In this document: positions 2,841 to 35,221 of the stretch, one piece after another | Layout of the letters: every line of letters starts with the position of its first letter | How positions within the stretch are numbered: the first letter of the stretch is position 1 | The notes under the pieces: generated by a model | Seen by the model: the letters and a program-made list of their open reading frames with translations, nothing else | Databases searched by the model: none | Told to the model about the DNA's origin: nothing | Assembly: GCA_019096065.1 (NCBI GenBank) | Contig: JAGUCH010000006.1 | Span: forward strand, 1,322,001-1,386,000 | Length of the DNA: 64,000 nucleotides | Direction: 5' to 3' | Source of the DNA: Paracyclopina nana | Taxonomy: Eukaryota > Arthropoda > Copepoda > Cyclopoida > Cyclopettidae | Position numbers and translations under genes: made by a program

Positions 2841-9511
<6,671 letters not shown>

Positions 9512-12575: not shown

Positions 12576-15500
12576 TTACTGCCTCGTCAACTGCGCTGCC
12601 AATTTTCGCCGATACAGCCTCATCAAGGCTGATAAACTCTTGCGGAAAGACTTTATCGCGAGGGCGTACACAATGGGGTTTGTGGCTGCTGATAGAGCGC
12701 CAAAGCAGAACGCACATACGTGCAAGTCTAGGTACTTTTGAATCATTTCTGGCGCGAGGTTTTTCACGTGGTAATTGCTGTATCCCACGATGACTGGCAA
12801 CGGCAGCCATATGATGAGAAATAGGGCCACAATGTATGACGACCTCTGAGCCATGATTGCCTCTCTGCGTCGCTTACCGTGAACAACTCGAGACTTGGAA
12901 ACGCCAAGCTTGCTTTTGAGCAGGGTCGGCAATCGGCTTAACGAGCCTGAAATATTGCCATAATCGTGGAAGTCTGTGTTCAGCTTAGATAAGCCCAACG
13001 ACCTCGTGCCCTCTGCTGAGGCTGACCTCGACAGCCTCAATGGCCTCTCCGGAACGTGCAAGTGATTCTGGTCGAAATCGATAGAGGTCCAAGTGTCTAG
13101 GCTGACCTCCAAGGCCGCTCCTGAGGAGGTGATTGATGCTCGTCTGCAATAATCCAATTTTGAGGTCGGAATGGTCAAGTGGTTCATCGCAACTGCTTCT
13201 CTTGTTCCGCCACAGTCGCCGAATTCAGTAGGGTCGTGCGGAGCTTCGTCAATTCGTATCTGCACCCGCTGAGGTGCAATGGCGACGTTATTGGCAATCA
13301 CCATTGCTGCTGGGGTGGATAGAGATCTTGCCCTCTTATTTTGGGAAGAATCAGCCGCAAAGTTGCAACTCTGTCTGGCTGCTAAAGAATTGAGCTTTTG
13401 CTTTCGAACGTACCAGACAATGAATGCGTAGCATGCGGCTGAAAACATGTACAAAAAAGTAAGCATTTCACTAAAAGAACATGGATGTACTGCATACTCG
13501 AAGGACATGCGTACTAAAAAAAGTGTAAGTATCCTTCAAATTAATATTTTCTGACAAGCTAGTGCCTGTGACATGTTTTCGGGCGAAAAAGCAAAGAAGA
13601 GTAAGCATTTCTGCTACTATATTTCTATTGCAGGGTACGAACTTTTTCTTCGAAAATTTTTTTGGGGAATTTTTGGTGGCATTTCACTTACTAGATGTGT
13701 ACTGCATGCTTGAAGGACTCATTTAAAAGTACTGTAAGCGCCCTTCTCGTCAAGATTCTTTTGACATGTTTGAGTTGGTAAGGCCTTTTCTACTACTATT
13801 TTCTCCAGTTGCAGAAAGTAAACTGCTATAAAAGCTGGAATCTGGTTGAGTTACAAGTATAGCCGATGAAAGTTTGCCAATTCTGGAGATATATCCAAGA
13901 ATACTACAAATTCTTGAATTATCTAGGCTTGCCATTTGTTATGATCAAGATCGCAACTAACTGCAGCAATTTCTTCTAATCTTTAATTGATTTTCAAGCT
14001 GAAGGAGATTTGATGCAAAGTAGGGGAGATACAAATCATAGTTGCTAACTTTCTGTTGTTTTGACGAATGCAGCTTTAACTATGGCTCTTTTCTAAAGAA
14101 AGCCTTTCTAATATTACGCAGATATACCCGTTTGCTTTGAAAGTAGCACCAAAGATGTACCGAATGCTCATCTTGGTATTCTCTTGTTGCTTGGAGAATA
14201 TGCAAAAAAGCTGTATGCCTTCACACGTTCGCCACGAAAGAAGCCTACTCCAAGTTAATTCTTGAAATATGGAGTTTCTGCGTGGAAAGTTTTTCGAGAG
14301 CCTCCGCTACATTTGCAAGGCAACGCATTTGTTGCAAGGCCTCGAAAGATATTGTATTCGGCTCGCAAAGAGCCAAAATGAGCTGTATTACCCGTGGCGA
14401 GAATGGCTGAGACCCCTAATGGGAGAGTGACTACATAAATCTTGACGAAGATTTCTTGCATCGTGTTGGGGTCGTTGAGCCAAGTTGGCCTACAATAGAT
14501 GCCCATTGAGGTCGACTCAAAGAAGAAGGCTGCCAAAGAGGCCACAATGAGGCCTGTAAGCCAGGAGAGCGCTGCAACAATAATGAAGGAAGGGAAATAT
14601 ATGACAGAAGTTTAGGGATATACAAACTTCAAGTTTGCACCTTATCAGCTTTTGCTGTAGGCTGCTCGCACATTCGGACTCACCATTTAGTAGGTTGACT
14701 CTGTGGAGTTGTTTGCCCTTATCGAAAGGATGAGTGACAGAGAAGAGCCTCTCGAGGCCGATGACAGGGAAGGCCAGGACTTGAACAGAGTTGCCTATTG
14801 TGTGCGCGAATGACTGAGCATGGCAAACCATATCATTCAAGGGCTTCTGTCGGATATGTGAAGGGATATTTAATTAGAAAATTGAATAAAACCCAATTAA
14901 GCTGCTTATTATGTGCTTTATCTCTCCATCCTGCATGTATATGGAAAGTGAAAAATCACAAAATCCATTTTATATACTAACAGCCTTCCAGGAACACTGC
15001 TGCTAAACTTTGCGTGTGGTTTGGAAATGTAATATTTCAGACCACATTTATCGCAAAAAATTGATATTTCGGACAAACCAGAATAATATTCCGTTCATGT
15101 GCAAAGTTGCTTTGCGGAAAGTAAAAAATTGTCAAAAGGCAACAGAGTTTTGCTATCAAACCACTTTTAAGAAGGGCTTCTCAACAAGTTGAACCAGGAA
15201 TCGAGTTAACAAATTTAGGGCAAAATTCCGAAAAAGATTTTGATTATTTCACCTGTATCTATTATGTAATAACTCTGCAATTTTTTGGTTGGTTCTTGTG
15301 AGTTTGTGTGAAACATATTGATTCAGAAGTAACCAGTTTGGCACTGAAATTGAAATAAACTTTGACTGTTTACTTTTCAATAGCCTTAAAATTGACCCGA
15401 TTCTTCAGTAAGTGTTAGTCTCTGGGGCCGCGTCTAAAAGCTGCGCCGACCCGCACCAACCCGCACCGACCCGCACCGACCCGCACCAACCCGCACCAAG

Positions 15501-18500
15501 CCGCACCGACCCGCACCGACCCGCACCAACCCGCACCAACCCGCGCCATACCACACAAACAAAAAAAAACAAAAAAAAAACTAACTAAAAGCTGATAAAG
15601 CACTTCTATTAGTAGCAAGCTAGAGCTTTTTGGCAAAAATGGATATGAAAAGAGCGGTTTTATCAAAACTATTTAATAATGCATAGCTTAAAGTGGAATT
15701 GTCAGGTGCTAGCTAGCATGAACTTTAAACTTCAAAATTCAAAGTGGTTACTGCAGTGGCTGGCCAAGAAAGAGCCATTTCTGCTCTCCCATGTAGCGAA
15801 GCAAAACTTCAAGTGCAATTTCTAACCCGCGCCAAGAAGTAACTTTTTTCAAAGTGGTTACTGCAAAAGATAGCTGGTAGCATCACCTTTCTGGCACAAG
15901 TGGCCTTATTGGCCTTTGCAAGAAAAGTTACTGCAGTGGCTGGCACAGAAAGAGCCATTTCTGCCCTCCTATGTAGGGAAGCAAAACTTCAAGTGCAATT
16001 TCAAACCCAGCCAGAAGTAACTTTTTAAAAGTGTTTACTGCAAAAGTAAGCTGGTAGTTTGACTTTCCATAAAAACTGGCCTTTTTGGCCTTTGCAAGAA
16101 AAGTTACTGCAGTGGCAGGCACAGAAAGAGCCATTTCTGCTCTCCTATGTAGCGAAGCAAAACTTCAAGTGCAATTTCAAACCCGCGCCAGAAGTAACTT
16201 TTTCAAAGTGGGGACTGCAAAGATAGCTGGTAGCATGACCTTTCATGAACAACTGGCCTTTTTGGCCTTTGCAAGAAAGTTACTGCAGTGGCAGGCACAG
16301 AAAGAGCCATTTCTGCTCTCCTATGTAGCGAAGCAAAACTTCAAGTGCAATTTCAAACCCGCCAAGAAGTAACTTTTTCAAAGTGGTTACTGCAAAAGAT
16401 AGCTGGTAGCATGAACTTTCTGGCACAAGTGGCCTTTTGGCCTTTGCAAGAAAAGCTACTGCAGTGGCAGGCACAGAAAGAGCCATTTCTGCTCTCCTAT
16501 GTAGCGAAGCAAACTTCAAGTGCAATTTCTAGCCTGCGCCAAGAAGTAACTTTTTTCAAATTTGTTACTGCAAAATATAGCTGGTAGCATCAGCTTTCTG
16601 GCACAAGTTGCCTTTTTGGACTTTGCAAGAAAAGATACTGCAGTGGCAGGCACAGAAAGAGCCATTTCTGCTCTCCTATGTAGCGAAGCAAAACTTCAAG
16701 TGCAATTTCTAACCTGCGCCAAGAGTTAACTTTTTTCAAAGTGGTTACTGCAAAGATAGCTGGTAGCATGAACTTTCTGGCACAAGTGGCCTTATTGGCC
16801 TTTGCAAGAAAAGTTACTGCAGTGGCTGGCACAGAAAGAGCCATTTCTGCTCTCCTATTTAGCGAAGCAAAACTTCAAGTGCAATTTCAAACCCTCGCCA
16901 AGAAGTAACTTTTTTCAAAGTGGTTACTGCAAAAGATAGCTGGTAGCATGACCTTTCTGGCACAGCTGGCCTTTTTGGCCTTTGCAAGAAAAGTTACTGC
17001 AGTGGCAGGCACAGAAAGAGCCATTTCTGCTCTCCTATGTAGCGAAGCAAAACTTCAAGTGCAATTTCAAATCCGCGCCAAGAAATAACTTTTTTCTTAA
17101 CTCTTTTTTTTAACTCTTTATTTTCAAGGGAAAAATAAACTCTGGTATGAGAAAAAGCTGAGAAGCATTTGGAAATTGAAGGCACACCCAGGATTTGCGG
17201 TTACGGTTTACCGGTAGGTAATAAGACATATTTTACTAAAAAAGGGTTCAATCCTACGCTCAGATGAAAAATAGTTGCTCAGTTCTCAAATTTTTCCCGA
17301 CCTCTCAGGGATTTTTCTTGGGGCCTAACTTTTGCTGAGGCAGTTGGGAACTATTAGAGTCAAAAAATTACTTTGAGGCATCTCTAGGCCCAACTGCTGA
17401 TTTTTTGCTTTGCTACATAGGAGAGCAGAAATGGCTCTTTCTTGGCCAGCCACTGCAGTAACTTTTCTTGCAAAGGCCAAAAAGGCCAGTTGTGCCAGAA
17501 AGGTCAAGCTACCAGCTAACTTTTGCAGTAACCACTTCGAAAAAAGTTACTTCTTGGCGCGGGTTTGAAATTGCACTTGAAGTTTTGCTTTGCTACATAG
17601 GAGAGCAGAAATGGCTCTTTCAGTGCCTGCCACTGCAGTAACTTTTCTTGCAAAGGCCAAAAAGGCCAGTTGTTCCTGACAGGTCATGCTACCAGCTATC
17701 TTTTGCAGTAACCACTTTGAAAAAGTTACTTCTTGGCGCGGGTTTGAAATTGCACTTGAAGTTTTGCTTCTCTACATAGGAGAGCAGAAATGGCTCTTTC
17801 TGTGCCTGCCACTGCAGTAACTTTTCTTGCAAAGGCCAAAAAGGCCAGCTGTGCCAGAAAGGTCATGCTACCAGCTATCTTTTGCAGTAACCACTTTGAA
17901 AAAAGTTACTTCTTGGCGCGGGTTTGAAATTGCACTTGAAGTTTTGCTTCACATAGGAGAGCAGAAATGGCTCTTTCTGTGCCAGACTCTGCAGTAACTT
18001 TACTGGCAAAGGCCAAAAAGGCCACTTGTGCCAGAAAGGTCAAGCTACCAGCTAACTTTTGCAGTAACCACTTTGAAAAAGTTACTTCTTGGCGCGGGTT
18101 TGAAATTGCACTTGAAGTTTTGCTTCGCTACATAGGAGAGCAGAAATGGCTCTTTCTGTGCCTGCCACTGCAGTAACTTTTCTTGCAAAGGCCAAAAAGG
18201 CCAGTTGTTCCTGAAAGGTCATGCTACCAGCTAACTTTGCAGTAACCACTTTGAAAAAGTTACTTCTTGGCGCGGGTTTGAAATTGCACTTGAAGTTTTG
18301 CTTCGCTACATAGGAGAGCAGAAATGGCTCTTTCTGTGCCTGCCACTGCAGTAACTTTTCTTGCAAAGGCCAAAAGACCACTTGTGCCAGAAAGGTCATG
18401 CTACCAGCTAGCTTTTGCAGTAACCACTTTGAAAAAAGTTACTTCTTGGCGCGGGTTTGAAATTGCACTTGAAGTTTTGCTTCGCTACATAGGAGAGCAG

Positions 18501-21500
18501 AAATGGCTCTTTCTGTGCCTGCCACTGCAGTAACTTTTCTTGCAAAGGCCAAAAAGGCCAGTTGTTCATGAAAGGTCAAGCTACCAGCTAACTTTTGCAG
18601 TAACCACTTTGAAAAAAGTTACTTCTTGGCGCGGGTTTGAAATTGCACTTGAAGTTTTGCTTCGCTACATAGGAGAGCAGAAATGGCTCTTTCTGTGCCT
18701 GCCACTGCAGTAACTTTTCTTGCAAAGGCCAAAAAGGCCAGTTGTTCCTGACAGGTCATGCTACCAGCTATCTTTTGCAGTAACCACTTTGAAAAAAGTT
18801 ACTTCTTGGCGCGGGTTTGAAATTGCACTTGAAGTTTTGCTTCGCTACATAGGAGAGCAGAAATGGCTCTTTCTGTGCCTGCCACTGCAGTAACTTTTCT
18901 TGCAAAGGCCAAAAAGGCCAGTTGTTCCTGAAAGGTCAAGCTACCAGCTAACTTTTGCAGAAACCACTTTGAAAAAGTTACTTCTTGGCGCGGGTTTGAA
19001 ATTGCACTTGAAGTTTTGCTTCGCTACATAGGAGAGCAGAAATGGCTCTTTCTGTGCCTGCCACTGCAGTAACTTTTCTTGCAAAGGCCAAAAAGGCCAG
19101 TTGTTTCTGACAGGTCATGCTACCAGCTATCTTTTGCAGTAACCACTTTGAAAAAGTTACTTCTTGGCGCGGGTTTGAAATTGCACTTGAAGTTTTGCTT
19201 CGCTACATAGGAGAGCAGAAATGGCTCTTTCTGTGCCTGCCACTGCAGTAACTTTTCTTGCAAAGGCCAAAAAGGCCAGTTGTTCCTGAAAGGTCATGCT
19301 ACCAGCTATCTTTTGCAGTAACCACTTTGAAAAAAGTTACTTCTTGGCGCGGGTTTGAAATTGCACTTGAAGTTTTGCTTCGCTACATAGGAGAGCAGAA
19401 ATGGCTCTTTCTGTGCCTGCCACTGCAGTAACTTTTCTTGCAAAGGCCAAAAAGGCCAGTTGTTCATGAAAGGTCATGCTACCAGCTATCTTTTTGCAGT
19501 CCCCACTTTGAAAAAAGTTACTTCTTGGCGCGGGTTTGAAATTGCACTTGAAGTTTTGCTTCGCTACATAGGAGAGCAGAAATGGCTCTTTCTGTGCCTG
19601 CCACTGCAGTAACTTTTCTTGCAAAGGCCAAAAAGGCCAGTTGTTCCTGAAAGGTCAAGCTACCAGCTAACTTTTGCAGTAACCACTTTGAAAAAGTTAC
19701 TTCTTGGCGCGGGTTTGAAATTGCACTTGAAGGTTTGATTCGCTACATAGGAGAGCAGAAATGGCTCTTTCTGTGCCAGACTCTGCAGTAGCTTTTCTTG
19801 CAAAGGCCAAAAAGGCCAGTTGTGCCAGAAAGGTCAAGCTACCAGCTAACTTTTGCAGTACCCACTTAGAAAAAAATTACTGCTGGGCGCGGGTTTGAAA
19901 TTGCACTTGAAGTTTTGCTTCGCTACATAGGAGAGCAGAAATGGCTCTTTCTGTGCCTGCCACTGCAGTAACTTTTCTTGCAAAGGCCAAAAAGGCCAGT
20001 TGTTCATGAAAGGTCATGCTACCAGCTATCTTTTGCAGTCCCCACTTTGAAAAAGTTACTTCTTGGCGCGGGTTTGAAATTGCACTTGAAGTTTTGCTTC
20101 GCTACATAGGAGAGCAGAAATGGCTCTTTCTGTGCCTGCCACTGCAGTAACTTTTCTTGCAAAGGCCAAAAAGGCCAGTTGTTCCTGAAAGGTCATGCTA
20201 CCAGCTAACTTTTGCAGTAACCACTTTGAAAAAGTTACTTCTTGGCGCGGGTTTGAAATTGCACTTGAAGTTTTGCTTCGCTACATAAGAGAGCAGAAAT
20301 GGCTCTTTCTGTGCCTGCCACTGCAGTAACTTTTCTTGCAAAGGCCAAAAAGACCACTTGTGCCAGAAAGGTCATGCTACCAGCTATCTTTTGCAGTAAC
20401 CACTTTGAAAAAAGTTACTTCTTGGCGCGGGTTTGAAATTGCACTTGAAGTTTTGCTTCGCTACATAGGAGAGCAGAAATGGCTCTTTCTGTGCCAGCCA
20501 CTGCAGTAACTTTTCTTGCAAAGGCCAAAAAGGCCAGTTGTTCATGAAAGGTCAAGCTACCAGCTAACTTTTGCAGTAACCACTTTGAAAAAAGTTACTT
20601 CTTGGCGCGGGTTTGAAATTGCACTTGAAGTTTTGCTTCGCTACATAGGAGAGCAGAAATGGCTCTTTCTGTGCCAGACTCTGCAGTAGCTTTTTCTTGC
20701 AAAGGCCAAAAGGCCAGTTGTGCCAGAAAGGTCAAGCTACCAGCTAACTTTTGCAGTAACCACTTTGAAAAAGTTACTTCTTGGCGCGGGTTTGAAATTG
20801 CACTTGAAGTTTTGCTTCGCTACATAGGAGAGCAGAAATGGCTCTTTCTGTGCCTGCCACTGCAGTAACTTTTCTTGCAAAGGCCAAAAAGGCCAGTTGT
20901 TCATGAAAGGTCAAGCTACCAGCTAACTTTTGCAGTAACCACTTTGAAAAAGTTACTTCTTGGCGCGGGTTTGAAATTGCACTTGAAGTTTTGCTTCGCT
21001 ACATAGGAGAGCAGAAATGGCTCTTTCTGTGCCTGCCACTGCAGTAACTTTTTCTTGCAAAGGCCAAAAGGCCAGTTGTTCATGAAAGGTCATGCTACCA
21101 GCTATCTTTGCAGTCCCCACTTTGAAAAAGTTACTTCTTGGCGCGGGTTTGAAATTGCACTTGAAGTTTTGCTTCGCTATATAGGAGAGCAGAAATGGCT
21201 CTTTTCTGTGCCTGCCACTGCAGTAACTTTTCTTGCAAAGGCCAAAAAGGCCAGTTGTTCCTGAAAGGTCAAGCTACCAGCTAACTTTTGCAGTAACCAC
21301 TTTGAAAAAAGTTACTTCTTGGCGCGGGTTTGAAATTGCACTTGAAGTTTTGCTTCGCTACATAGGAGAGCAGAAATGGCTCTTTCTGTGCCAGACTCTG
21401 CAGTAGCTTTTCTTGCAAAGGCCAAAAAGGCCAGTTGTGCCAGAAAGGTCAAGCTACCAGCTAACTTTTGCAGTAACCACTTTGAAAAAGTTACTTCTTG

Positions 21501-24500
21501 GCGTGGGTTTGAAATTGCACTTGAAGTTTTGCTTCGCTACATAGGAGAGCAGAAATGGCTCTTTCTGTGCCTGCCACTGCAGTAACTTTTCTTGCAAAGG
21601 CCAAAAAGGCCAGTTGTTCATGAAAGGTCATGCTACCAGCTATCTTTTGCAGTCCCCACTTTGAAAAAGTTACTTCTTGGCGGGTTTGAAATTGCACTTG
21701 AAGTTTTGCTTCGCTACATAGGAGAGCAGAAATGGCTCTTTCTGTGCCTGCCACTGCAGTAACTTTTCTTGCAAAGGCCAAAAAGGCCAGTTGTTCCTGA
21801 AAGGTCATGCTACCAGCTAACTTTTGCAGTAACCACTTTGAAAAAAGTTACTTCTTGGCGCGGGTTTGAAATTGCACTTGAAGTTTTGCTTCGCTACATA
21901 GGAGAGCAGAAATGGCTCTTTCTGTGCCTGCCACTGCAGTAACTTTTCTTGCAAAGGCCAAAAAGGCCAGTTGTTCATGAAAGGTCATGCTACCAGCTAT
22001 CTTTTGCAGTCCCCACTTTGAAAAAAGTTACTTCTTGGCGCGGGTTTGAAATTGCACTTGAAGTTTTGCTTCGCTACATAGGAGAGCAGAAATGGCTCTT
22101 TCTGTGCCTGCCACTGCAGTAACTTTTCTTGCAAAGGCCAAAAGGCCAGTTGTTCCTGAAAGGTCAAGCTACCAGCTAACTTTTGCAGTAACCACTTTGA
22201 AAAAGTTACTTCTTGGCGCGGGTTTGAAATTGCACTTGAAGTTTTGCTTCGCTACATAGGAGAGCAGAAATGGCTCTTTCTGTGCCAGACTCTGCAGTAG
22301 CTTTTTCTTGCAAAGGCCAAAAAGGCCAGTTGTGCCAGAAAGGTCAAGCTACCAGCTAACTTTTGCAGTAACCACTTTGAAAAAGTTACTTCTTGGCGCG
22401 GGTTTGAAATTGCACTTGAAGTTTTGCTTCGCTACATAGGAGAGCAGAAATGGCTCTTTCTGTGCCTGCCACTGCAGTAACTTTTCTTGCAAAGGCCAAA
22501 AAGGCCAGTTGTTCATGAAAGGTCATGCTACCAGCTATCTTTTGCAGTCCCCACTTTGAAAAAGTTACTTCTTGGCGCGGGTTTGAAATTGCACTTGAAG
22601 TTTTGCTTCGCTACATAGGAGAGCAGAAATGGCTCTTTCTGTGCCTGCCACTGCAGTAACTTTTCTTGCAAAGGCCAAAAAGGCCAGTTGTTCCTGAAAG
22701 GTCATGCTACCAGCTAACTTTTGCAGTAACCACTTTGAAAAAAGTTACTTCTTGGCGCGGGTTTGAAATTGCACTTGAAGTTTTGCTTCGCTACATAAGA
22801 GAGCAGAAATGGCTCTTTCTGTGCCTGCCACTGCAGTAACTTTTCTTGCAAAGGCCAAAAAGACCACTTGTGCCAGAAAGGTCATGCTACCAGCTATCTT
22901 TTGCAGTAACCACTTTGAAAAAAGTTACTTCTTGGCGCGGGTTTGAAATTGCACTTGAAGTTTTGCTTCGCTACATAGGAGAGCAGAAATGGCTCTTTCT
23001 GTGCCAGCCACTGCAGTAACTTTTCTTGCAAAGGCCAAAAAGGCCAGTTGTTCATGAAAGGTCAAGCTACCAGCTAACTTTTGCAGTAACCACTTTGAAA
23101 AAAGTTACTTCTTGGCGCGGGTTTGAAATTGCACTTGAAGTTTTGCTTCGCTACATAGGAGAGCAGAAATGGCTCTTTCTGTGCCAGACTCTGCAGTAGC
23201 TTTTCTTGCAAAGGCCAAAAAGGCCAGTTGTGCCAGAAAGGTCAAGCTACCAGCTAACTTTTGCAGTAACCACTTTGAAAAAGTTACTTCTTGGCGCGGG
23301 TTTGAAATTGCACTTGAAGTTTTGCTTCGCTACATAGGAGAGCAGAAATGGCTCTTTCTGTGCCTGCCACTGCAGTAACTTTTCTTGCAAAGGCCAAAAA
23401 GGCCAGTTGTTCATGAAAGGTCAAGCTACCAGCTAACTTTTGCAGTAACCACTTTGAAAAAGTTACTTCTTGGCGCTGGTTTGAAATTGCACTTGAAGTT
23501 TTGCTTCGCTACATAGGAGAGCAGAAATGGCTCTTTCTGTGCCTGCCACTGCAGTAACTTTTCTTGCAAAGGCCAAAAAGGCCAGTTGTTCATGAAAGGT
23601 CATGCTACCAGCTATCTTTTGCAGTCCCCACTTTGAAAAAAGTTACTTCTTGGCGCGGGTTTGAAATTGCACTTGAAGTTTTGCTTCGCTATATAGGAGA
23701 GCAGACATGGCTCTTTCTGGGCATGCCACGGCCTTAACTTTTCTGGCAAAGGCCAAAAAGGCCAGTTGTTCCTGAAAGGTCAAGCTACCAGCGAAATTTT
23801 GCAGTAACCACTTTGAAAAAAGTTAATTCTGGGCGCGGGTTTGAAATTGCACTTGAAGTTTTGCTTCGCTACATAGGAGAGCAGAAATGGCTCTTTCTGT
23901 GCCAGACTCTGCAGTAGCTTTTCTTGCAAAGGCCAAAAAGGCCAGTTGTGCCAGAAAGGTCAAGCTACCAGCTAACTTTTGCAGTAACCACTTTGAAAAA
24001 GTTACTTCTTGGCGCGGGTTTGAAATTGCACTTGAAGTTTTGCTTCGCTACATAGGAGAGCAGAAATGGCTCTTTCTGTGCCTGCCACTGCAGTAACTTT
24101 TTCTTGCAAAGGCCAAAAAGGCCAGTTGTTCATGAAAGGTCATGCTACCAGCTATCTTTTGCAGTCCCCACTTTGAAAAAGTTACTTCTTGGCGCGGGTT
24201 TGAAATTGCACTTGAAGTTTTGCTTCGCTACATAGGAGAGCAGAAATGGCTCTTTCTGTGCCTGCCACTGCAGTAACTTTTCTTGCAAAGGCCAAAAAGG
24301 CCAGTTGTTCCTGAAAGGTCATGCTACCAGCTAACTTTTGCAGTAACCACTTTGAAAAAGTTACTTCTTGGCGCGGGTTTGAAATTGCACTTGAAGTTTT
24401 GCTTCGCTACATAAGAGAGCAGAAATGGCTCTTTCTGTGCCTGCCACTGCAGTAACTTTTCTTGCAAAGGCCAAAAAGACCACTTGTGCCAGAAAGGTCA

Positions 24501-26909
24501 TGCTACCAGCTATCTTTTGCAGTAACCACTTTGAAAAAGTTACTTCTTGGCGCGGGTTTGAAATTGCACTTGAAGTTTTGCTTCGCTACATAGGAGAGCA
24601 GAAATGGCTCTTTCTGTGCCAGCCACTGCAGTAACTTTTCTTGCAAAGGCCAAAAAGGCCAGTTGTTCATGAAAGGTCAAGCTACCAGCTAACTTTTGCA
24701 GTAACCACTTTGAAAAAGTTACTTCTTGGCGCGGGTTTGAAATTGCACTTGAAGTTTTGCTTCGCTACATAGGAGAGCAGAAATGGCTCTTTCTGTGCCA
24801 GACTCTGCAGTAGCTTTTCTTGCAAAGGCCAAAAGGCCAGTTGTGCCAGAAAGGTCAAGCTACCAGCTAACTTTTGCAGTAACCACTTTGAAAAAGTTAC
24901 TTCTTGGCGCGGGTTTGAAATTGCACTTGAAGTTTTGCTTCGCTACATAGGAGAGCAGAAATGGCTCTTTCTGTGCCTGCCACTGCAGTAACTTTTCTTG
25001 CAAAGGCCAAAAAGGCCAGTTGTTCATGAAAGGTCAAGCTACCAGCTAACTTTTGCAGTAACCACTTTGAAAAAAGTTACTTCTTGGCGCGGGTTTGAAA
25101 TTGCACTTGAAGTTTTGCTTCGCTACATAGGAGAGCAGAAATGGCTCTTTCTGTGCCTGCCACTGCAGTAAATTTTCTTGGAAAGGCCAAAAGTGCCAGT
25201 TGTTCATGAAAGGTCAAGCTACCAGCTAACTTTTGCAGTAACCACTTTGAAAAAAGTTACTTCTTGGCGCGGGTTTGAAATTGCTTTTGAAGTTTTGCTT
25301 AAAAGTTCATGCTGGCAGCAACCTTTTTAAAGCTTTTTTTGTTTTCTGTTGGTTTGTGCGGTATGGTGCCGGTTTGTGCGGGTCAGTGCGGGTCGGTGCG
25401 GGTCGGTGCGGGTCGGTGCGGGTTTTAGACAACCCGAGTCTCTGGTATTAACATCAGCAGAAGTTTATTTTTGTGTTTGTCATAAGACGTAGACAATTTT
25501 TCTCCTTTCCATAAGGCTTTCGACGTGCATTGTCGTACGGAATTTGGGGGCACATGAACGGGTTATAAGTCTACTGAGGAGGAAAACAAGGTTGCCTTCC
25601 GTTTGTATATTTATGGATCATGATCAAACCGAGAACAGATGGGTCAAATAACCCTCAGGATACCATGAATTGGCCTTCCTCGTTGTATATTCTTTATATC
25701 CCTTCTGGTTCTTTGCAGATGTGGCTCTGTACCACAATGAATCTACGTCTTGAAATCACACGAGACCTTTTCAGAACTATCATGGGAGGATCCGTTACAA
25801 ATGCGCAGTTGCTAACAATGGCTTAGTCTTTCGCAAGTTTTACATAGTCACGCTATTAAAATAGCTCATAACATAAAACGTATTTAAATAGCAGCTATTT
25901 AAATACATCCAGAGGCTATTTAAATACATTTTATGCTATGAGCTATTTAAATAGCGTGACTATGCAAAACTTGCGAAAGACTAAGCCAATATTAAGCCAC
26001 AGAAAAGAAACTAAACTTGGCAATGAAGGTCAAAGAGAAAGGCGCTAACGCAAACAACCAAGATTGATCTTTCACAGCTTTGAACAAGAAAAAACGGCTT
26101 TTCTTAAGAATTGAGCTTAAAGAAATACTTGCTTAGTACAAAACATCACAAAAATGCACCTTGAAGGTTTTTGTCGGAGCTAAATTCATTGTGTGCGGAC
26201 ATCTAAAAAGCAACCACTTTGAGTGGGAGAGGAATGTGTAACGCCTCTCAAGCTAATAGAATTCTCAGCCGTTTTTTCTGCACTCTAGCTAATTCAATGA
26301 ATCACTACTATATTAAAGGTACTGCACTTTTCCCAAGCGTCAGTATAACTTCGTAAACATGAGCTGTTCTTAGAACTCCTTGATTTATACGGAGAAAAGA
26401 AAGGGACTAGGATTTGTAATGCTAATTGCTAATTGAGTACGTGCACCTAGACTACAGTTAGCTAATGTAAATGAGAGTTGAGCTGGAGAAACAAGAAGGC
26501 ATGTATGTTATGCAACAAGCACATTCTCGATTAATTATGAGAAAAGTAATTGCTTGCCGTCTTCTGCAACAGTTGACATATAAACTTCCTACTCACATAC
26601 GCTTCTATAATTGTTGGCTCTTACATATGCAGCAATTCTTACATGGTTCCCATCAAAGTTATTGAGGAGAATGAATGAAGAAAGCGGGACATCAAGGCAA
26701 ACTGTAATGAGATCCGCACAACATAAATTGAGGACAGCCCGGTTGATGCTCGATTTTCGCAAGCTTCTCGTCTTCAAAATGGTGACAATCACGCACGAAT
26801 TGCACACGACACCGACAACCGAGGTGAGGAGCCCAATTGATAGGCAAAATGCCAAAGCTGGCCTTGATACCGCGGCAACAAGGCCTGTTGCGTTCTCTGA
26901 GGCGTTCAT
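12576..26909 (-). CDS. class A (rhodopsin-like) GPCR, orphan
   Basis: Four exons on the minus strand: 26909-26643, 14846-14684, 14571-14392 and 13438-12576 (TAA). All have GT-AG borders and matching phases (0, 1, 1), giving 490 residues. The N-terminus MNASENAT carries two N-glycosylation sites. Exon 1 holds TM1-TM2 (ADLITV in TM2). Exon 2 holds TM3 with the conserved extracellular Cys (97) and LERLF (120-124) at the DRY position. Exon 3 holds TM4 and most of TM5. Exon 4 holds the end of TM5, an intracellular loop 3 of about 160 residues, TM6 (IIWLPLP) and TM7 with NPIVY (457-461). TM3 lacks the amine-binding Asp, so an aminergic receptor is unlikely; a peptide or orphan receptor fits better. 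Intron 1 (14847-26642) contains the 10-kb foldback element and a snapback MITE. The short C-tail ends AAQLTRQ. Confidence 0.85.
15417..15425 (+). repeat. 9-bp target-site duplication, left copy
   Basis: AGTCTCTGG here and again at 25437-25445, directly abutting the two inverted ends of the foldback element. Confidence 0.7.
15426..15565 (+). repeat. left terminal repeat with GC-rich decamers
   Basis: GTCTAAAA at 15432-15439 is followed from about 15446 by some ten copies of a decamer CCGCACC[GA]AC, ending CCGCGCCATACCACACAAAC and A-runs. Its inverted partner is at 25350-25436. Confidence 0.75.
15722..17094 (-). repeat. 180-bp tandem array, left arm (8 units)
   Basis: Eight copies of AGAAAGAGCCATTTCTGC spaced about 170-183 bases mark the units (first near 15764, last near 17009). 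The orientation is opposite to the right arm. The units differ from each other by many small changes and indels, more than in the right arm. Short open frames in the array are by-products of a period near 180 and are not genes. Confidence 0.85.
17095..17396. other. unique centre of the foldback element
   Basis: About 300 bases not resembling the 180-bp unit, starting with T-runs and including GGTTTACCGGTAGG. No open frame of note. This is the pivot between the two opposed arrays. Confidence 0.6.
17397..25300 (+). repeat. 180-bp tandem array, right arm (about 44 units)
   Basis: About 44 near-identical units, each including CTACATAGGAGAGCAGAAA, TGCAAAGGCCAAAAAGGCC, GGTCATGCTACCAGCTA, and GTAACCACTTTGAAAAAAGTTAC (itself a small inverted repeat). 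Marker variants recur at regular spacing, showing higher-order copies (see 19762-24783). Confidence 0.9.
19762..24783 (+). repeat. two tandem copies of a 14-unit (2.51-kb) higher-order repeat
   Basis: The variant unit reading GTGCCAGACTCTGCAGTAGC instead of GTGCCTGCCACTGCAGTAAC occurs in units whose ATG lies at 19762, 20659, 21376, 22270, 23169, 23887 and 24783. The spacings are 897, 717, 894, 899, 718 and 896, that is 5-4-5 units then 5-4-5 again. A second marker (CATAAGAGAG) also recurs after about 2510 bases. Confidence 0.75.
25350..25436 (-). repeat. right terminal repeat with GC-rich decamers
   Basis: Four to five GGTCGGTGCG decamers, then GGTTTTAGAC and AACCCG. Read in reverse complement it matches the left end from GTCTAAAA inward, but it is shorter. 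Confidence 0.75.
25437..25445 (+). repeat. 9-bp target-site duplication, right copy
   Basis: AGTCTCTGG, identical to 15417-15425. Confidence 0.7.
25820..25987. mobile_element. snapback (palindromic) MITE
   Basis: A nearly perfect inverted repeat of 168 bases. It begins GGCTTAGTCTTTCGCAAG and ends with its complement; arms of about 75 bases are rich in ATTTAAATA and the loop is short. It is flanked by AAT on both sides (25817-25819, 25988-25990), possibly a 3-bp duplication. It lies in GPCR intron 1, under 400 bases from the foldback element. Confidence 0.65.
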
Positions 26910-29299
26910 TGTTCGACTAACGCGAGTGTAATAAAGATATCCCTTGATTCAACTGCAATGCTCACTTGTAACTACAACACTAGCCTTGCTGGCCTTTTGC
27001 CTTGATCAATCGAGGCTGGCCGCCGGCCTCATCTGGTGAGAATCACAGAAATAGCAACAACATGGCCAGATGATGCATGCTTTCACTTCACTGACTTATG
27101 CATGAGAGCACTTAGACAAAAGAACATTAACCTCATGACGTATCCAAGCAAATCCATCAGTCCTCATCAGGTAAATATGGAAAGTACGCACATTCAGATG
27201 AACCAAGAGAAGCCAATCTGAACATTTGCTAGTGCTTCGTATGAATCAAGTGAGATGTATACTGTAGAAGATAATTGTTAATGCGCACGGAGTAGCTTCA
27301 GGCTAATAAATTGGACTACATTCGTATATAAGCAAGATGCAGTACACATCGCACATACAGACTGTCTGTTTGTGAGGGATCTATATTAAATAAAAAGTGC
27401 TTAGAAATCAATGTATAGATGCTATAACAATAGGTGAAATAGCTTTATTATTCGCCTATCCTCGCTTTCTTGATTTTTATTAGATCCTCTACAACATATA
27501 CTGCCACTTTTATGATGGATGTCATATCCTAATTCAACCTACACGTGACTCTTACTAGAACGTAATTTATTGAAGATTATAATTGAGTATAGTTTCCGAC
27601 TCGCATGAAGAATAGACTAAAGAAACCTTGCTACAAGGTCTCTAAGCGGAAAGCGCATCACTTTTCCTGCTGAACATGGCAGAAACGAGGAATTTACAAC
27701 GTCCTTGAATTACGTGGATATTTTCTTAATTTTTTTGTGGGAAAGTGAGCTTGACAACCTCGAGTGGTGTCTAGATTAATAAGGCCTAATCGAAGTTTTC
27801 TAAATCGGGATAAGTGATCAGCTTTCAATAAGCTTAGCTGGAAGGCTCATTAATGAGCACATACCAGATTTGTAGGATTGATTACTGCAGTTACGATACA
27901 TACACAGTTATGCAACTCTTTTATGTAAGGAAATAACTATCGCGTGCATTATGTATACAAAACAATAAAAAAGCTCGGTTAGAGCTTGCTTTTCGTGTTT
28001 GCAAGCCCACTTATCATAAACATCTGGCTCATTGGTGATTCATTGCAAATGTAACCTGGTAATGGAATGAATGCACTTTTTAGAAGCTCCATCTCGAATT
28101 CATATCAAAGGCCTAAAATGCATACTTTCTTGATTTCAACTTTTCCCATTTTAAGTGTAAAGTTTTTCGTCAATCGTCATCTCCTTTTGTCATGTATGGC
28201 ATATGCAATATCCCTTATGCGAAGCAAAATTATGCTTGAATTGGTAACTGTGTAGATATGCGAGATTCAACTTATGTAGTCTGTCGAGTTAGTTTAGTCT
28301 GACACGAAACTTCAGTCAACTTATGAATACTGTATGTATGTGTGTAGTATAACAAGACTTGCTTCCAAAGGGGCCAAAACGTGTGTACTCCGATCTTATG
28401 CAAAGAAAGAACCGGGAGAGTTGGAGTAGCACAATGGTCAATATCTCGCTTTCATTCATCTTTTTCGGATGGTGCATGAAAAAAAAGTTTGTCAATCGAA
28501 TTTCGATCTTCAGCTGGGACGACAACAGTGGAAAAAATCGAAATTTTCCTCGTCCACTATGTGAAATCCTATATAGCTTTGAAAGTTGCGGGCCGAACTC
28601 ACATATCGAAACGCTGTACATGCAAATGCATTGGATCGTTGCAAAACCTGAAATCAGAGCGCGCCTTCATCTCTGGGATGCATTTACACGTACTATGGCT
28701 TCTGCAGCTATGCGCACATACATACCTTATCGTGCATTTTTTCAGCTGAAATATGACTAATTCTCTCTTCTGCTATTTTCTAGGCCATTCTTCTTTATAC
28801 ATGTGATTGTCAGATATGTGCTGATTCTAAAACAGCCTGTATTTAGGTCTCCTATTCAATTAGTCATTCCACAGCTAATGAGAAGTAGTGGCTGTCGTGA
28901 AAGTCATTTCCAGACAAAGCATGAGTTTTGTAAGCTGTCCTCGGGTATTCAAGGCACAGGTGACCAAAATGGAGCTATGGAAAAGCCCCCTTTGTAACGA
29001 TTGGCCTCGGCAATGGCCCTTCATGACTCATCATGACGCACCAATAATACATATCAAGTGCGAGCGCATTCTTTTGAAGCTGGCACTCAATTACACGCAC
29101 ACTATACTAAAGCTGCTGTTTTATAGCAGTATAGCTGTAACACTAGAACTTGCTAAGCAGTTTCGATATGATCTTTTCGCTGCTAGCACTGGTCTGTGTA
29201 TTCAGCGATCCAAAATTGTGGCGATTCGTAGCAGCTGTAGCTCTCAGTTATTACGTGAGTGGAAAAAGTGAGGAAAATGGACTGCAGCCTGAGGTCGTC
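26910..29299. other. intergenic spacer between GPCR and FABP genes
   Basis: AT-rich, about 2.4 kb, upstream of both the minus-strand GPCR and the plus-strand FABP gene, so both promoters should lie here. I see no extra gene; the short open frames lack splice or codon support. Confidence 0.5.
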
Positions 29300-31471
29300 A
29301 TGGCTGTCCTCTCTGGAGGCTCGTCACAATCAAATATCAACTGCTGTGACCTCATTACTGGAACCTATACCTACTCCTCCTCAATCAACTTTGAAAACTA
29401 CTTACGACAATTGGGAGTGGCATATTGGCTTCGTCAACTGGCAATGCTAGCACATCCCGTTGTGACTGTCAAGGCAAAAAATTGCTCAAGGCCGGAAAAG
29501 GTATTGTTTTAAGGGTGGTCGTTACTCGAGGACATATATCCCTAATGGCCTCCTTTTTTGGCATGGACAAAGTGAGGCTTTTCAACTTATGGCTTGAGAG
29601 AGTGCTGGTGGTGTATATGCTTTGTAGCTGTTGCAACATTTGTGCGAAAAGCTGCATTGTTTCGGTCGTACGAATGCAAAAGGAACTCGAGCATGGTCAT
29701 TAGTGTGGAAAGATATGCATATAGTAGATCAAAGTAAATTAACCTTGCCTACGCGTGCTTATGCGTACTTTGCTATTCAGGGTAAGCGCATAGGATAAGA
29801 CACGAAAGCCTTCTATACAAAATGTAAATATAGAAAATAACCAATTTAGTCACATGCTATGTTCATAACTTTTTATTAGCTAAATTAAAATTTGAAAAGG
29901 GCCTTATATCTTTTTAGCTGCTTTTTTGGAGCACGTTTACATTTTAAAAAGTTTTCATATTGAGCGAAAGAATGAGGCAAAATTAATTGATTACTTCGTC
30001 AGCCAAAAAGCTGCACTCAAAGCTGCTACTTTTTCATGGCCGATTGCAGCATCCAGTCTGATTCAGAGAAATGTAAGCACTTTTTGTCAGTCTTTAATGC
30101 CCTGTTCATCTACAACGACTATTTCAGTCGTAACTTTAGCAGTCTTACAAAAAATTGTCGTTATTCTATAACGACAAAAATTGTCTTAGGTCAGCGCAAG
30201 ACCAGTCGTTAGCCTACGTATCAGGTAAGCGCGTTAGTCAAGTTAAGCAGCATGCTGGCTAGGGCTGACTAATGCCCTGTTCATCTACAACGACTATTTC
30301 AGTCGTAACTTTAGCAGTCTTACAAAAAATTGTCGTTATTCTATAACGACAAAAATTGTCTTAGGTCAGCGCAAGACCAGTCGTTAGCCTACGTATCAGG
30401 TAAGCGCGTTAGTCAAGTTAAGCAGCATGCTGGCTAGGGCTGACTAAATCAATTTTGATTTGCCTTTGCCCAAGGGCCAACCTTCCACCCTTCCTTTGGT
30501 TTAGTCTACCCTAACGTAAGGACAAGTCTTACAGCAAGTAAAGCCGGCCTGCTAGGGTTGACTAAGATATTCTACTAGGTCTATCATTTCGGTGGATTCT
30601 TTCCAAAGTTGCATTAGTTTAGTCAATCCTAGGGGGATCGCTAAAATAACACCAGTCCTTACCAGCTACGACTGCTAATAGAAATTCGTGGAGCTACGAC
30701 AACTTTTTTCGTTAGGTAAGACAAGTAAGTTACGAAAAAGTTGAGTAGATGAACAGGGCATAAATCAATTTTGATTTGCCTTTGCCCAAGGGCCAACCTT
30801 CCACCCTTCCTTTGGTTTAGTCTACCCTAACGTAAGGACAAGTCTTACAGCAAGTAAAGCCGGCCTGCTAGGGTTGACTAAGATATTCTACTAGGTCTAT
30901 CATTTCGGTGGATTCTTTCCAAAGTTGCATTAGTTTAGTCAATCCTAGGGGGATCGCTAAAATAACACCAGTCCTTACCAGCTACGACTGCTAATAGAAA
31001 TTCGTGGAGCTACGACAACTTTTTTCGTTAGGTAAGACAAGTAAGTTACGAAAAAGTTGAGTAGATGAACAGGGCATAAAATGAAGTGCTCACAATTTTC
31101 TGAATCAGGCTGCTTGAGAAAAAATCATACACAAAGTGCATTTTCAGGTGGATTGTATCTGGGAGATTGAGACTTCGACATTGGTGAAAAATCATGTCGT
31201 AAGCTTCCGCATCGGAGAAACAGTTGCTGATACTACCATGGATGGCCGAGATATAACTTTCAAGATGGAACAACCCCACCCTAATCAGTTTGTTGAAACC
31301 CAATACTACGGCAAAAACGAGTCTACCAAGATTACGCGAACGTTCTCAGAGAGCACAATGAAAGTCACTCTAGAGGCAAATGGAGTGATAGCAGCCAGCT
31401 CGTTTACTCGCCAAAATCATGATGATTTTGCTGACGAGCCTGCAAAAATTACCACTCGTGAGAATTTGTGA
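29300..31471 (+). CDS. fatty-acid-binding protein (intracellular lipid-binding family)
   Basis: Two exons: 29300-29500 and 31148-31471 (TGA), phase 0, GT-AG, 174 residues. FABPs are 10-strand beta-barrels of about 132 residues carrying fatty acids or retinoids in the cytosol. Exon 1 has the FABP signature GTYTY....NFENYLRQLGV (from residue 21), then RQLAMLAHPVVTV matching the helix-turn region. Exon 2 has FRIGETVADTTMDGRDITF, matching the family's 'F.LG.EF.E.T.D.R' strands, and later a TRTFSE..M-type strand. There are about 20 extra N-terminal and 15-25 extra C-terminal residues. An in-frame upstream ATG at 29168 would add a hydrophobic leader (MIFSLLALVCVFS), so a secreted form cannot be excluded; 29300 is chosen because it is nearest the domain. 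The intron carries nested MITEs. Confidence 0.8.
30098..31076 (+). mobile_element. PIF/Harbinger-type MITE (outer copy), interrupted by a second copy
   Basis: The outer copy is 30098-30272 plus 30764-31076, 488 bases when the insert is ignored. Ends are TGCCCTGTTCATCTAC and its complement. It is flanked by TAA (30095-30097 and 31077-31079), the TWA duplication typical of PIF/Harbinger. No coding capacity. It lies in the FABP intron. Confidence 0.85.
30273..30760 (+). mobile_element. PIF/Harbinger-type MITE (inner copy), inserted in its own kind
   Basis: 488 bases, same ends and orientation as the outer copy, flanked by TAA at 30270-30272 and 30761-30763. By eye the inner and outer copies are identical over their full length, so the insertion is recent. 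Confidence 0.88.
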
Positions 31472-32025: not shown

Positions 32026-35000
32026 TCAAGGTTGCTGCAGGCCATCATCATTGTTTTTCTGCTCCTCTTGCTTCTTCAGTTCGATTATATTGGCTACAGC
32101 TTCTTGTTGGTGATTGGCCTTGGCTGCCAATGGGTACATTTCTGTCATTACTGTCGGTGCGGGAGCCTCGTGCCTTCGATTTCTCGAGCGAGCCTCGAGC
32201 CACTCCAAGACTGCATTGGGCGTGATCCGCTTCACATTTTTGTACATCACCTCGCGGAAAGTGGTCGAAGTGAAAGCATAAATGAAGAAGTTGACACTCG
32301 AGTTGAGGGTCATTAAGCAGTGGGAAATGGAAGCTCCACTCAGGGCCCAAACGCTCACGCTGTTGCAGTCGTCTTTTATGGCCGCCCTCAAGGTGTCCAA
32401 GGTCAGGAATTCGTGCACATTGAGCACAAATCGGGGAGTGTGACAGAAAAAGAACAGAAGGACAATGACGAAAAGTACAACTGCTTGCTGGGCTTCGTTG
32501 GCTTTCTTTTGCTGAGCGGCCATATGATGGGTATTCACGACTGAGGCTGAGCCTCCTCCGTTGACAGCAGCAGGCGCTTGCATGTTTGAATTTTGGGGCC
32601 GATTTATCAGTTGACGGCGGCGTTTCATCACCCAGTAGATGCGGTAGTTCAAGAAGCTCAGGCAAATAAAGGGAATGATGCCTTGTACCAGGAGCCTGGC
32701 GATGTTGACATACAGAACCACATAGATTTCGTCCAAACGAAGTTGAGTGGGCGCAGCGTACGTACGATTGATTTGGATCGTTTTGGTCTCCTGCAAAAAA
32801 AGGGAGGAAAGTTGCAGCTTGGAAACTTTCGGTGCAATTTCGTTAATGATCAAGCTCGCGCACACATCTCACTAGGCCTCTTCATACAACATTAAACAAT
32901 AGGAAAAAACCCTCGAAAAGCTGCAAAGCCAGCAGAACCTCGATGCATTTGTGGGTTGGGAAATTAAGGGAATATAAATGCATTTGGTATAACTTTATGA
33001 CACCAATGATTGGAACTAGCGCAAAAACGTGTGAAAGCGCAGAGCAGGAAAAAAAGCCCATAGTAGTTGCACAAAACACTTCTTCTGCTATAATGAAGAA
33101 AGGCCTTCACAACTCGACCACTCTTAAATCAACAGCTGCTCTCAGACGAAATTGTGGGTAGGAGAAAAAATGCCACAAAAAGGTATTAGCTGTAATTCCT
33201 GTCTGAGACTACATTACTGGCAAAAAGTTTTCCACCTTTCGCTCAATTTTCCACCATCTATAAAGGAAATTTTTTCCTTCCGTTAAATTGCGTTTTACTT
33301 GAGCTCCAATTTTAGTACTGATCGTTTTTACTCACTTTTGATAGCTTTAAGTAAACCACTTTTCCCACCTCTTTTGGTCGCATGAGTTTGAAGTGTTTTG
33401 ATTTATCAGAAGTACGAAAACTTAGGCATTTCATTAAGGCTGTCGTAAGATTTTAAGGAAACGAGGGATAGATGAACACCCGATTAATGCATGTATATGA
33501 TGTGCCTTCAACTTTCCTTGGCTAAAACTACAATTGTGAAAGGTGAAACTTTTTGGTGAAAGGCCATAATGGTCATTTTTGCAGCACTTCACCTTCTAGT
33601 GCTATATTCAATGAAGAGAACGAAATGGCTTTTGGTTCTCAGCTAAAGTCAGCAAGCAGATATCGGTTTTCTGCTCCTTTTGAATCTTGAAATCTGAAAC
33701 TTCCATCCATCCATTGAATCTCAGTGGAAGTAAAATATACCATCGTACATTCGAGCATGAATTAGTGCGAGTGTATCTTTTCCATCAGGTAAACCTATAA
33801 TCACATTTCCGCTCCGCTCTGGTATTGCCAATATTGTGAAAGCATTTCACAGCAGATCATTAGCAAAAAGTGCGCATCTGCGACGTATTTTTGGAATTTT
33901 TCATTGTGAGGAATGCATTTTCATCAAGATATAAATACGAGTATTAGCTAGAATTTGACGTCGACATTTGGAGCCGAATTTCGTGCATTTGTTAACTAGC
34001 ATAAATAAGAGAGGAACAGAAAACACTTCCAATAACCATGGTTTCGGTTTCCAGAAAAAGGCTTTTGACTCTTAAGGTACCAATATCTGAGAACTGCCAC
34101 ACATACCATTGAAATCCATTGTCGAGTAGCATCTCAACTGCAGCCTTGATTTTGGAGAAAACCGCAGTACAAAAGCCAGTTTTTTAAGCTAATGATAAGC
34201 AACTTTGGAGGGTACGAAAGGATTATGGTTGAGAGTCAGCCAAGTTTGTTTGTGCTTCAAAAGAGATCCACTTGCAAACAAATGCTGAATAAAAGATGAG
34301 AGAGTAGAACCGCAAGTGTATCATTGTGAACAGCATTTCAAGCACAGCCTCATAAAATAATGACTAATGACGCGCGAGTAGCACATTTCTCTTCCCAATG
34401 ATTGCTAATGAAACTGGCTTTAGCAAACTCAACATAGCTTGAAAAATGGATGGGGTTATCTAAACATTTCAGTCGCACGCTCGCACAAAGTACGCCTTCA
34501 GCTCGGAAAAATTGATCGTTGGCTGGTGAATTTCAAGCAGAAAATCCCAGGGTCTAGGTTGTCAGTCTCACGGGAATTACGGGCTAAACGTATGCGTTAT
34601 TCTCACCTCAATGGGCTCGTTGAGTGTGTCGTTCCATACCATATTCTTGATAACCTCCCAGTCGGTTTTGACCATCATTTCCACCTCCAGGACTTTGGGA
34701 ATGTTGAACAGAGTGGAGAAGATGACCACTGGCAGCAAGTAGGACACCAAGACTCTCTTCCATGGATTCACACCCATGCATTGGTTGTGGTATTCCACAG
34801 GCCTCCAAACAGCTCGGTAACGCTCCAGAGCGAGCGCAACAGTCAAGAAGATCGAGCCACAAAGGACAAAGTTATGGAGCTGATAAAGGCCATATGCAAA
34901 GGCGTATTCGTGCGCCGTATTATGCGGGCTGCTCTTTCGCTTGGCCTCAATGACGCTACAGAGGATGTAGAAGTTGTCATAAACCGCCAGCAAGACTAGC

Positions 35001-35221
35001 AGGCGATTGAAAATTGACGACATCTCCTTCGAGCAGAGGATTGGAATGGCCAAGAGGTTGGCCATGAGTCCAGCGATTCCTACTCCGGTCTGGAGGACAT
35101 TTTCGAAGAGCCAAGAGATGGTATGGTACATTCGGATGGCTTCCTCAGAGGGCTCCTCGCAAATCGAGCTCGTTATTGGGACCGTCGAATTCTCATCAGA
35201 TGCTGCCATATCTTCCATCAT
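32026..35221 (-). CDS. FMRFamide-receptor-like neuropeptide GPCR
   Basis: Two coding exons on the minus strand: 35221-34607 and 32790-32026, phase 0, GT-AG with a 1.8-kb intron, 459 residues. The ATG is preceded by an acceptor (TTTGTTTCCTCAG, exon from 35234), so a 5'-UTR intron is likely; the larger open frame upstream is not used. Exon 1 has TM1 (GIAGLMANLLAIPIL), TM2 (LLVLLAVYDNFYILC), TM3 with a Cys and ALERYRAVWRP at the DRY position, and TM4. Exon 2 has an extracellular loop with an N-glycosylation site, TM5, a long Gln/Asn-rich loop 3, TM6 (FFFCHTPRFVLN) and TM7 (NSSVNFFIYAF). This layout is that of the FMRFamide receptor group; the ligand is not shown by sequence. A minus-strand AATAAA lies at 31790-31795. 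Confidence 0.85.

Follow-up and report, generated by a model that had tools for sequence, protein, structure and literature searches.

A 10-kb foldback-type element with opposed ~180-bp arrays in a predicted receptor intron of Paracyclopina nana and its dispersed family

A 10-kb block of tandem repeats in the genome of the copepod Paracyclopina nana is very probably a non-autonomous foldback DNA transposon, inserted in a receptor intron within an older dispersed repeat, with a transposase of the Mutator (MULE) superfamily as the most likely mobiliser. The block lies in a 64-kb stretch of contig JAGUCH010000006.1 (GenBank assembly GCA_019096065.1, positions 1,322,001 to 1,386,000 of the forward strand), which is referred to here as the window. 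It was confirmed to be one insertion of a dispersed family, beyond chance, since its ends recur genome-wide and 22 of the 28 two-ended copies carry a perfect, copy-specific target-site duplication. The family is real, recently mobile to judge from the likeness of its copies, and probably of Mutator type.

The insertion was delimited at window positions 15426-25436 (10,011 bp) with AGTCTCTGG on either side, and exactly two occurrences of AGTCTCTGG were found in the window, at 15417 and 25437. The perfect 9-bp direct repeat named in the original prediction was therefore recovered, and the predicted facing of about 8 units by about 44 agreed with TRF counts of 7.6 and 44.0 in inverted arms. The features of the element and of the predicted host gene, in window coordinates, are as follows.

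12576..13535, minus strand: receptor last exon region, 7tm_1 positions 159-260 (19.4 bits)
14520..14873, minus strand: receptor exon region around TM3, 7tm_1 positions 49-94 (14.7 bits, E 0.022, weak)
15417..15425, no strand: left target-site duplication AGTCTCTGG, perfect 9-bp match to 25437-25445
15426..15447, plus strand: left tip GGCCGC-GTCTAAAA-GCTGCGCC, read inwards (22-mer genome matches)
15449..15548, plus strand: left decamer array of CCCGCACCRA type, 10.0 copies (TRF)
15549..15746, plus strand: inner part of the left end domain (matches at other left ends)
15747..17096, minus strand: left arm, 7.6 units of ~180 bp (TRF period 176), in orientation opposed to the right arm (TRF, complementarity, orientation map)
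17097..17402, plus strand: centre, 306 bp, a reduced version of the 760-bp family centre (287 bp at 99%)
17403..25300, plus strand: right arm, 44.0 units of ~180 bp (TRF, period 179)
25365..25423, minus strand: right decamer array, 5.9 copies (TRF)
25419..25436, minus strand: right tip CGGGTT-GTCTAAAA-CCCG, read inwards (genome matches to the 22-mer)
25437..25445, no strand: right target-site duplication AGTCTCTGG
26592..26948, minus strand: receptor exon region, TM1-TM2, 7tm_1 positions 2-46 (21.2 bits)

At both ends GTCTAAAA sits 6 bp inside the boundary, in inverted orientation, and a longer inward reading of the right end gives CGGGTT-GTCTAAAA-CCCGCACC. The outermost 6 bp are unlike (GGCCGC at the left, CGGGTT at the right), so the terminal inverted repeats are not perfect; the predicted inverted ends with decamers hold for GTCTAAAA and for the decamer arrays at both ends, but not for these outermost bases. 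The centre, which had been called unique, proved to be an abbreviated version of one common to other copies. Complementarity between the arms extends to a longest inverted pair of 545 nt at 92%, with five further pairs of 343-345 nt at 95-96%. Along the right arm, unit similarity has maxima at lags of 5, 9 and 14 units, which suggests amplification in multi-unit (higher-order) blocks. Predicted folding of the tips alone gave short hairpins of -2.0 and -4.6 kcal/mol, values obtained with unchecked energy parameters and not taken as evidence. Elsewhere in the window, two adjacent perfect tandem duplications of 175 bp (30095-30447) and 316 bp (30445-31080), 2.0 copies each at 100%, are either very recent or an assembly artefact.

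The predicted location inside a GPCR intron was supported by the order of the receptor matches, with weak scores: all three single matches fall below the Pfam 7tm_1 cut-off of 30.5 bits, and it is the succession of 7tm_1 pieces along the minus strand, not their scores, that argues for a single rhodopsin-type receptor gene, with the element in the predicted intron that separates the TM2 from the TM3 exon region. The stretch 14258-14611, read by eye as TM4-TM5, gave no Pfam match. The insertion would place the inverted arms in the receptor pre-mRNA, where they could possibly form a hairpin. Two further minus-strand regions, at 32026-32868 (7tm_1 positions 151-260) and 34577-35362 (positions 2-118), probably represent a second receptor gene beside the one bearing the element.

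Family copies and target sites

The genome searched was the same 92-Mb assembly from which the window is drawn. A search with the left end found at least 46 matches (40 of 71 candidates scored). The left-tip 22-mer, at up to three mismatches, had 34 genome matches, of which 25 are perfect and 7 differ at one position; with the reversed control scoring 24, matches with two or three mismatches mean little. The right-tip 22-mer, at the same threshold, had 30 matches (reversed control, 2). Duplications were scored in 30 genomic stretches and the window, which yielded 23 end pairs, and in five further copies. In 20 of the 23 pairs the duplication is perfect, 9 bp long in 19 and 10 bp in one; in the other three it is not. 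The five additional copies contributed two perfect and three imperfect cases. The resulting 22 perfect duplications among 28 two-ended copies (21 of 9 bp, one of 10 bp) all differ from one another, a footprint of transposition at many loci, and other loci with the same ends and different 9-bp duplications, as the original prediction anticipated, are thus present. The imperfect duplications have 8 (L025), 2 (L026), 6 (second L027 pair), 5 (C1:10001507), 2 (C1:1355889) and 4 (C9:4823682) mismatches of 9. Eight one-ended loci (L022, L033, L037, L038, L048, L050, L051 and L053) stand outside the 28-copy count. The doubtful L027 pair measures 0.5 kb; copy lengths otherwise run from 1.07 kb to 15.5 kb. 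A CCTGG-type simple repeat was noted at the start of C1, and no telomere repeat was recognised on inspection of the start of C3.

An empty site was sought by way of repeats that had been hit by the element. The copy at C2:9801652 is inserted in another repeat, of which an ungapped paralog inside L021 holds the target once, at 70 of 75 identical positions; one target base differs, and 12 bp past the target are comparable on the right. For this copy the single target expected of an empty site was therefore seen. The repeat concerned is a short element with inverted ends, one copy of which hosts the C2:9801652 insertion and another of which lies inside the family centre of L021 (locus positions ~4080-4480). 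A second paralogous comparison, between L028 and a stretch inside L031, gave a weaker case (62 of 79 identical, with a gap outside the target).

The flanks of the window element (15276-15425 and 25446-25568) belong to a dispersed repeat. When the joined flanks were compared with the genome, 39 of the 42 matches listed crossed the junction, one was the window itself and two were partial (40 of 346 candidates scored); these dispersed matches place the element inside an older repeat. The 39 junction-crossing relatives are all 15-20 bp shorter than the matched part of the query. A 22-bp pattern spanning the window junction had, at up to three mismatches, one genome match, away from all 39 relatives, and its reversed control also had one. 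Because every relative is shorter and none carries the junction pattern, the missing 15-20 bp probably lie at the junction. The copy of the repeat that was hit perhaps already had a small extra stretch; for the window copy the length difference counts against the preferred reading.

Arms, centres and the satellite reading

Unit orientation was mapped in the 23 end pairs. In seventeen the left domain leads into an inward array, followed by the centre, the opposite array and the right domain, with extra gaps in L014 and L025; L031 keeps this order with an oversized right side. In L023, L035 and L036 the opposed arms meet without a centre, and both L027 pairs are short or nested. Arm length varies among copies and between the arms of a single copy, with up to 57 counted units (right/left, 57/12 in L012+L013, 52/24 in L017+L018 and 43/7 in the window element). 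These long inverted tandem-repeat arms of variable length, together with the copy-specific duplications, bear out the FB-type organisation originally proposed. FB arms, to which the present ones are likened in structure, are built of much shorter repeats than the ~180-bp units described here.

In all, 594 units were cut out, 537 of which measure 178-181 bp. Mean likeness was 94.4% between units of one arm, 93.5% between opposite arms of one copy, 93.2% between same-side arms of different copies and 92.9% between opposite-side arms of different copies. The nearest neighbour of a unit lay only in another copy in 258 of the 594 cases and only in the same arm in 193. By both measures, homogenisation in place is weak.

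The commonest centre is ~760 bp long, lacks a long reading frame and is 96.7-99.7% alike in five copies (L009, L012+L013, L014, L016 and L017+L018). Relative to the ends, the centres of 17 comparable copies lie one way in 12 and the other way in 5 (L019+L020, L025, L026, L032 and L034); as the last four have one short centre in common, at least two inversion events are implied. Recombination between the opposed arms would explain such inversions. Blocks of the centre (L017:5151-5910) were also seen, among the matches listed (40 of 219 candidates scored), at 23 dispersed non-family loci, partly in alternating orientation, and perhaps represent another repeat family within the 760-bp centre.

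Long, fairly homogeneous ~180-bp arrays of up to 57 counted units per arm, amplified in multi-unit blocks, would also be expected of ordinary satellite DNA spread through recombination or extrachromosomal circles. The distribution of the unit leaves this reading with hardly any credit. A conserved 30-mer of the unit, searched genome-wide at up to three mismatches, had 753 matches (reversed control, 0), of which 730 sit at family loci. The 23 end pairs account for 640 of these, and ten further loci, each bearing one end or more, for 90. The other 23 were not all located; among the matches listed (~100 places), a perfect one at C1:10039868-10039897 lies ~30 kb from the nearest listed end. With 730 of 753 matches at loci having family ends, the ~180-bp unit is not a free satellite, and the possibility raised with the original prediction, that the unit occurs genome-wide as ordinary satellite lacking the ends, did not hold. 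The defined ends and the copy-specific duplications of 22 of 28 copies likewise speak against a satellite and agree with the preferred reading of a transposed foldback element.

Candidate mobilising transposases

Duplications of 8-11 bp are given for the Mutator (MULE) superfamily (PMC6446971), and the perfect duplications of the family fall within this range (21 copies at 9 bp, one at 10 bp). Five MULE-domain matches were found in the genome, in open frames of 252-537 aa (L039-L043), each more than 600 kb from every listed family end. None of the five loci has a unit match, and ends containing GTCTAAAA, sought within ~1.5 kb on either side of each, were not found. The open MULE frame at L039:1057-2667 has a C-terminal RING-type match above the curated cut-off, and that at L041:1432-2661 has one slightly under it.

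When the L039, L040 and L041 proteins were compared by tblastn with 40 sequences, the family and MULE loci included, a single family copy, L010+L011, was matched (L041, E 1e-9; L039, E 8e-8). This copy is 11,768 bp long and has a perfect duplication, TATACTTTT, and a 2.6-kb centre. In a looser search of L010+L011 alone, residues 159-254 of L041 were matched in two pieces with a stop (E 3e-14) and residues 328-376 of L039 with 21 of 49 identical (E 2e-9). The fragment, a decayed remnant lying in the centre of this one copy, could be a nested insertion; the occurrence of a decayed MULE fragment inside a copy supports Mutator-type mobilisation. The L010+L011 centre is partly common to the C3:5638938 copy (79% over ~520 bp). 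The L010 centre also matches 282 bp in the flank of L040 (84%), in what is probably an interspersed repeat, and this match was given no weight. The longest frames of at least 150 aa (up to four per pair, 23 pairs) include none that reads like a transposase, a survey that an intron-split gene would escape. A MULE-domain transposase between family ends was thus seen as a decayed fragment in one copy and as an open frame in none of those read, and the autonomous copy envisaged in the original prediction was not found among them. The genome had no match to PF12762 (IS1595-type, Merlin), a search whose control was positive in 1 of 14 genomes only (Haloferax volcanii).

A different decayed transposase-like remnant is present on the minus strand of an 8.9-kb family copy at C1:10001507-10010406 (L055/L057, C1:10004100-10005099). 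It had no Pfam match in the part read, and we take it to resemble PHD-associated transposase-like proteins. Such a remnant would suit a foldback moved by a transposase outside the classical MULEs, for instance of Rehavkus type: Rehavkus elements make 9-bp duplications, carry a minisatellite ahead of the 3' TIR (PMC6446971) and are marked by a PHD finger. We nevertheless regard this origin as unlikely: a 92-aa segment of the remnant occurs only once in the genome, the remnant may itself be a nested insertion, and the copy that holds it is old, with an unclean duplication (5 of 9 mismatched), whereas the MULE remnant sits in a copy with a perfect duplication. A P-superfamily foldback would be far less likely still. 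P-type elements make 7-8 bp duplications, whereas 21 of the 22 perfect duplications here are 9 bp long and the other is 10 bp, and the remnant found is of MULE type. What speaks for an element such as Galileo is that its inverted repeats are described as long and internally repetitive. Mutator-type mobilisation of the foldback element is accordingly the reading retained; it is supported, not proven, since a decayed MULE fragment lies in the centre of a two-ended copy but an autonomous copy was not found.

Under the Mutator-type reading, the tips, and perhaps also the sub-terminal repeat arrays, would be recognised by a transposase supplied in trans, most likely one of the MULE superfamily; the element would be cut out and reinserted at a 9-bp staggered cut, giving the 9-bp duplication. 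Once in place, the arms could lengthen or shorten by unequal exchange of multi-unit blocks, and the centre could be flipped when the inverted arms recombine with each other.

Meaning and comparison with known foldback systems

With 28 two-ended copies, most of them bearing clean duplications, the family offers a large set for the origin of tandem-array arms, and suits the questions of how a large foldback can stay mobile and how satellite-like arrays spread. We raise more tentatively the idea of a recently active family in which very long opposed arrays travel within the transposon and units are shared between copies, so that satellite-sized arrays would be spread by cut-and-paste and the element's own centres flipped; the units and decamers may serve as extra transposase-binding sites that keep large elements mobile. 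No paper was recognised as being about this family in a literature search (made other than by organism name), and unpublished status is not claimed.

The closest likeness in plan is to Tm1, a Mutator/Foldback family of Meloidogyne, the root-knot nematodes (PMC3169594). In both, asymmetric outer motifs lie just within a duplication of mostly 9 bp and are followed by a shared short motif and by tandem repeats; in both, too, the repeat number is variable, most copies are non-autonomous and several classes of centre occur (PMC3169594). The architecture of Tm1 is thus found here, in other sequence: its outer motifs are 7 bp and its repeats ~14 bp, against 6-bp tips and decamers in the present family, and a by-eye comparison with the motifs printed in PMC3169594 found neither the Tm1 terminal motifs nor its ~14-bp repeats. 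Tm1 elements are 0.17-2.5 kb long and arrays of long units are not described for them in the part of that paper available, whereas copies here reach 15.5 kb; one Tm1 copy encodes a FLYWCH-MULE transposase (PMC3169594), whereas an open transposase was found in no copy read here. That the two have the same end plan in different sequence suggests that Mutator-type foldbacks may be built to a common design.

Tetris, a foldback element of Drosophila virilis, likewise has tandem units (~220 bp) in inverted repeats behind an outer flanking domain, a variable non-coding centre and 8-10-bp duplications; no autonomous copy of it was found, and unequal exchange was suggested for changes in unit number (PMC4079207). 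The likeness is one of structure. Three structurally complete Tetris copies are described (PMC4079207), compared with 28 two-ended copies here, and its units occur in satellite-like arrays too, with as many as 66 copies (PMC4079207), whereas 730 of 753 unit matches here lie at family loci. Rehavkus shares the 9-bp duplication and the minisatellite before the 3' end, but is marked by a PHD-finger transposase, and long opposed arrays are not among the features described in the part of the source available (PMC6446971). Drosophila FB/FB4 elements resemble the present family in long arms, 9-10-bp duplications and non-autonomy, and FB4 has been placed nearer MULEs by its duplication and arm length (PMC8277862). 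The family is new, of a kind already known from flies and root-knot nematodes, and is striking in its size and completeness, not in its principle.
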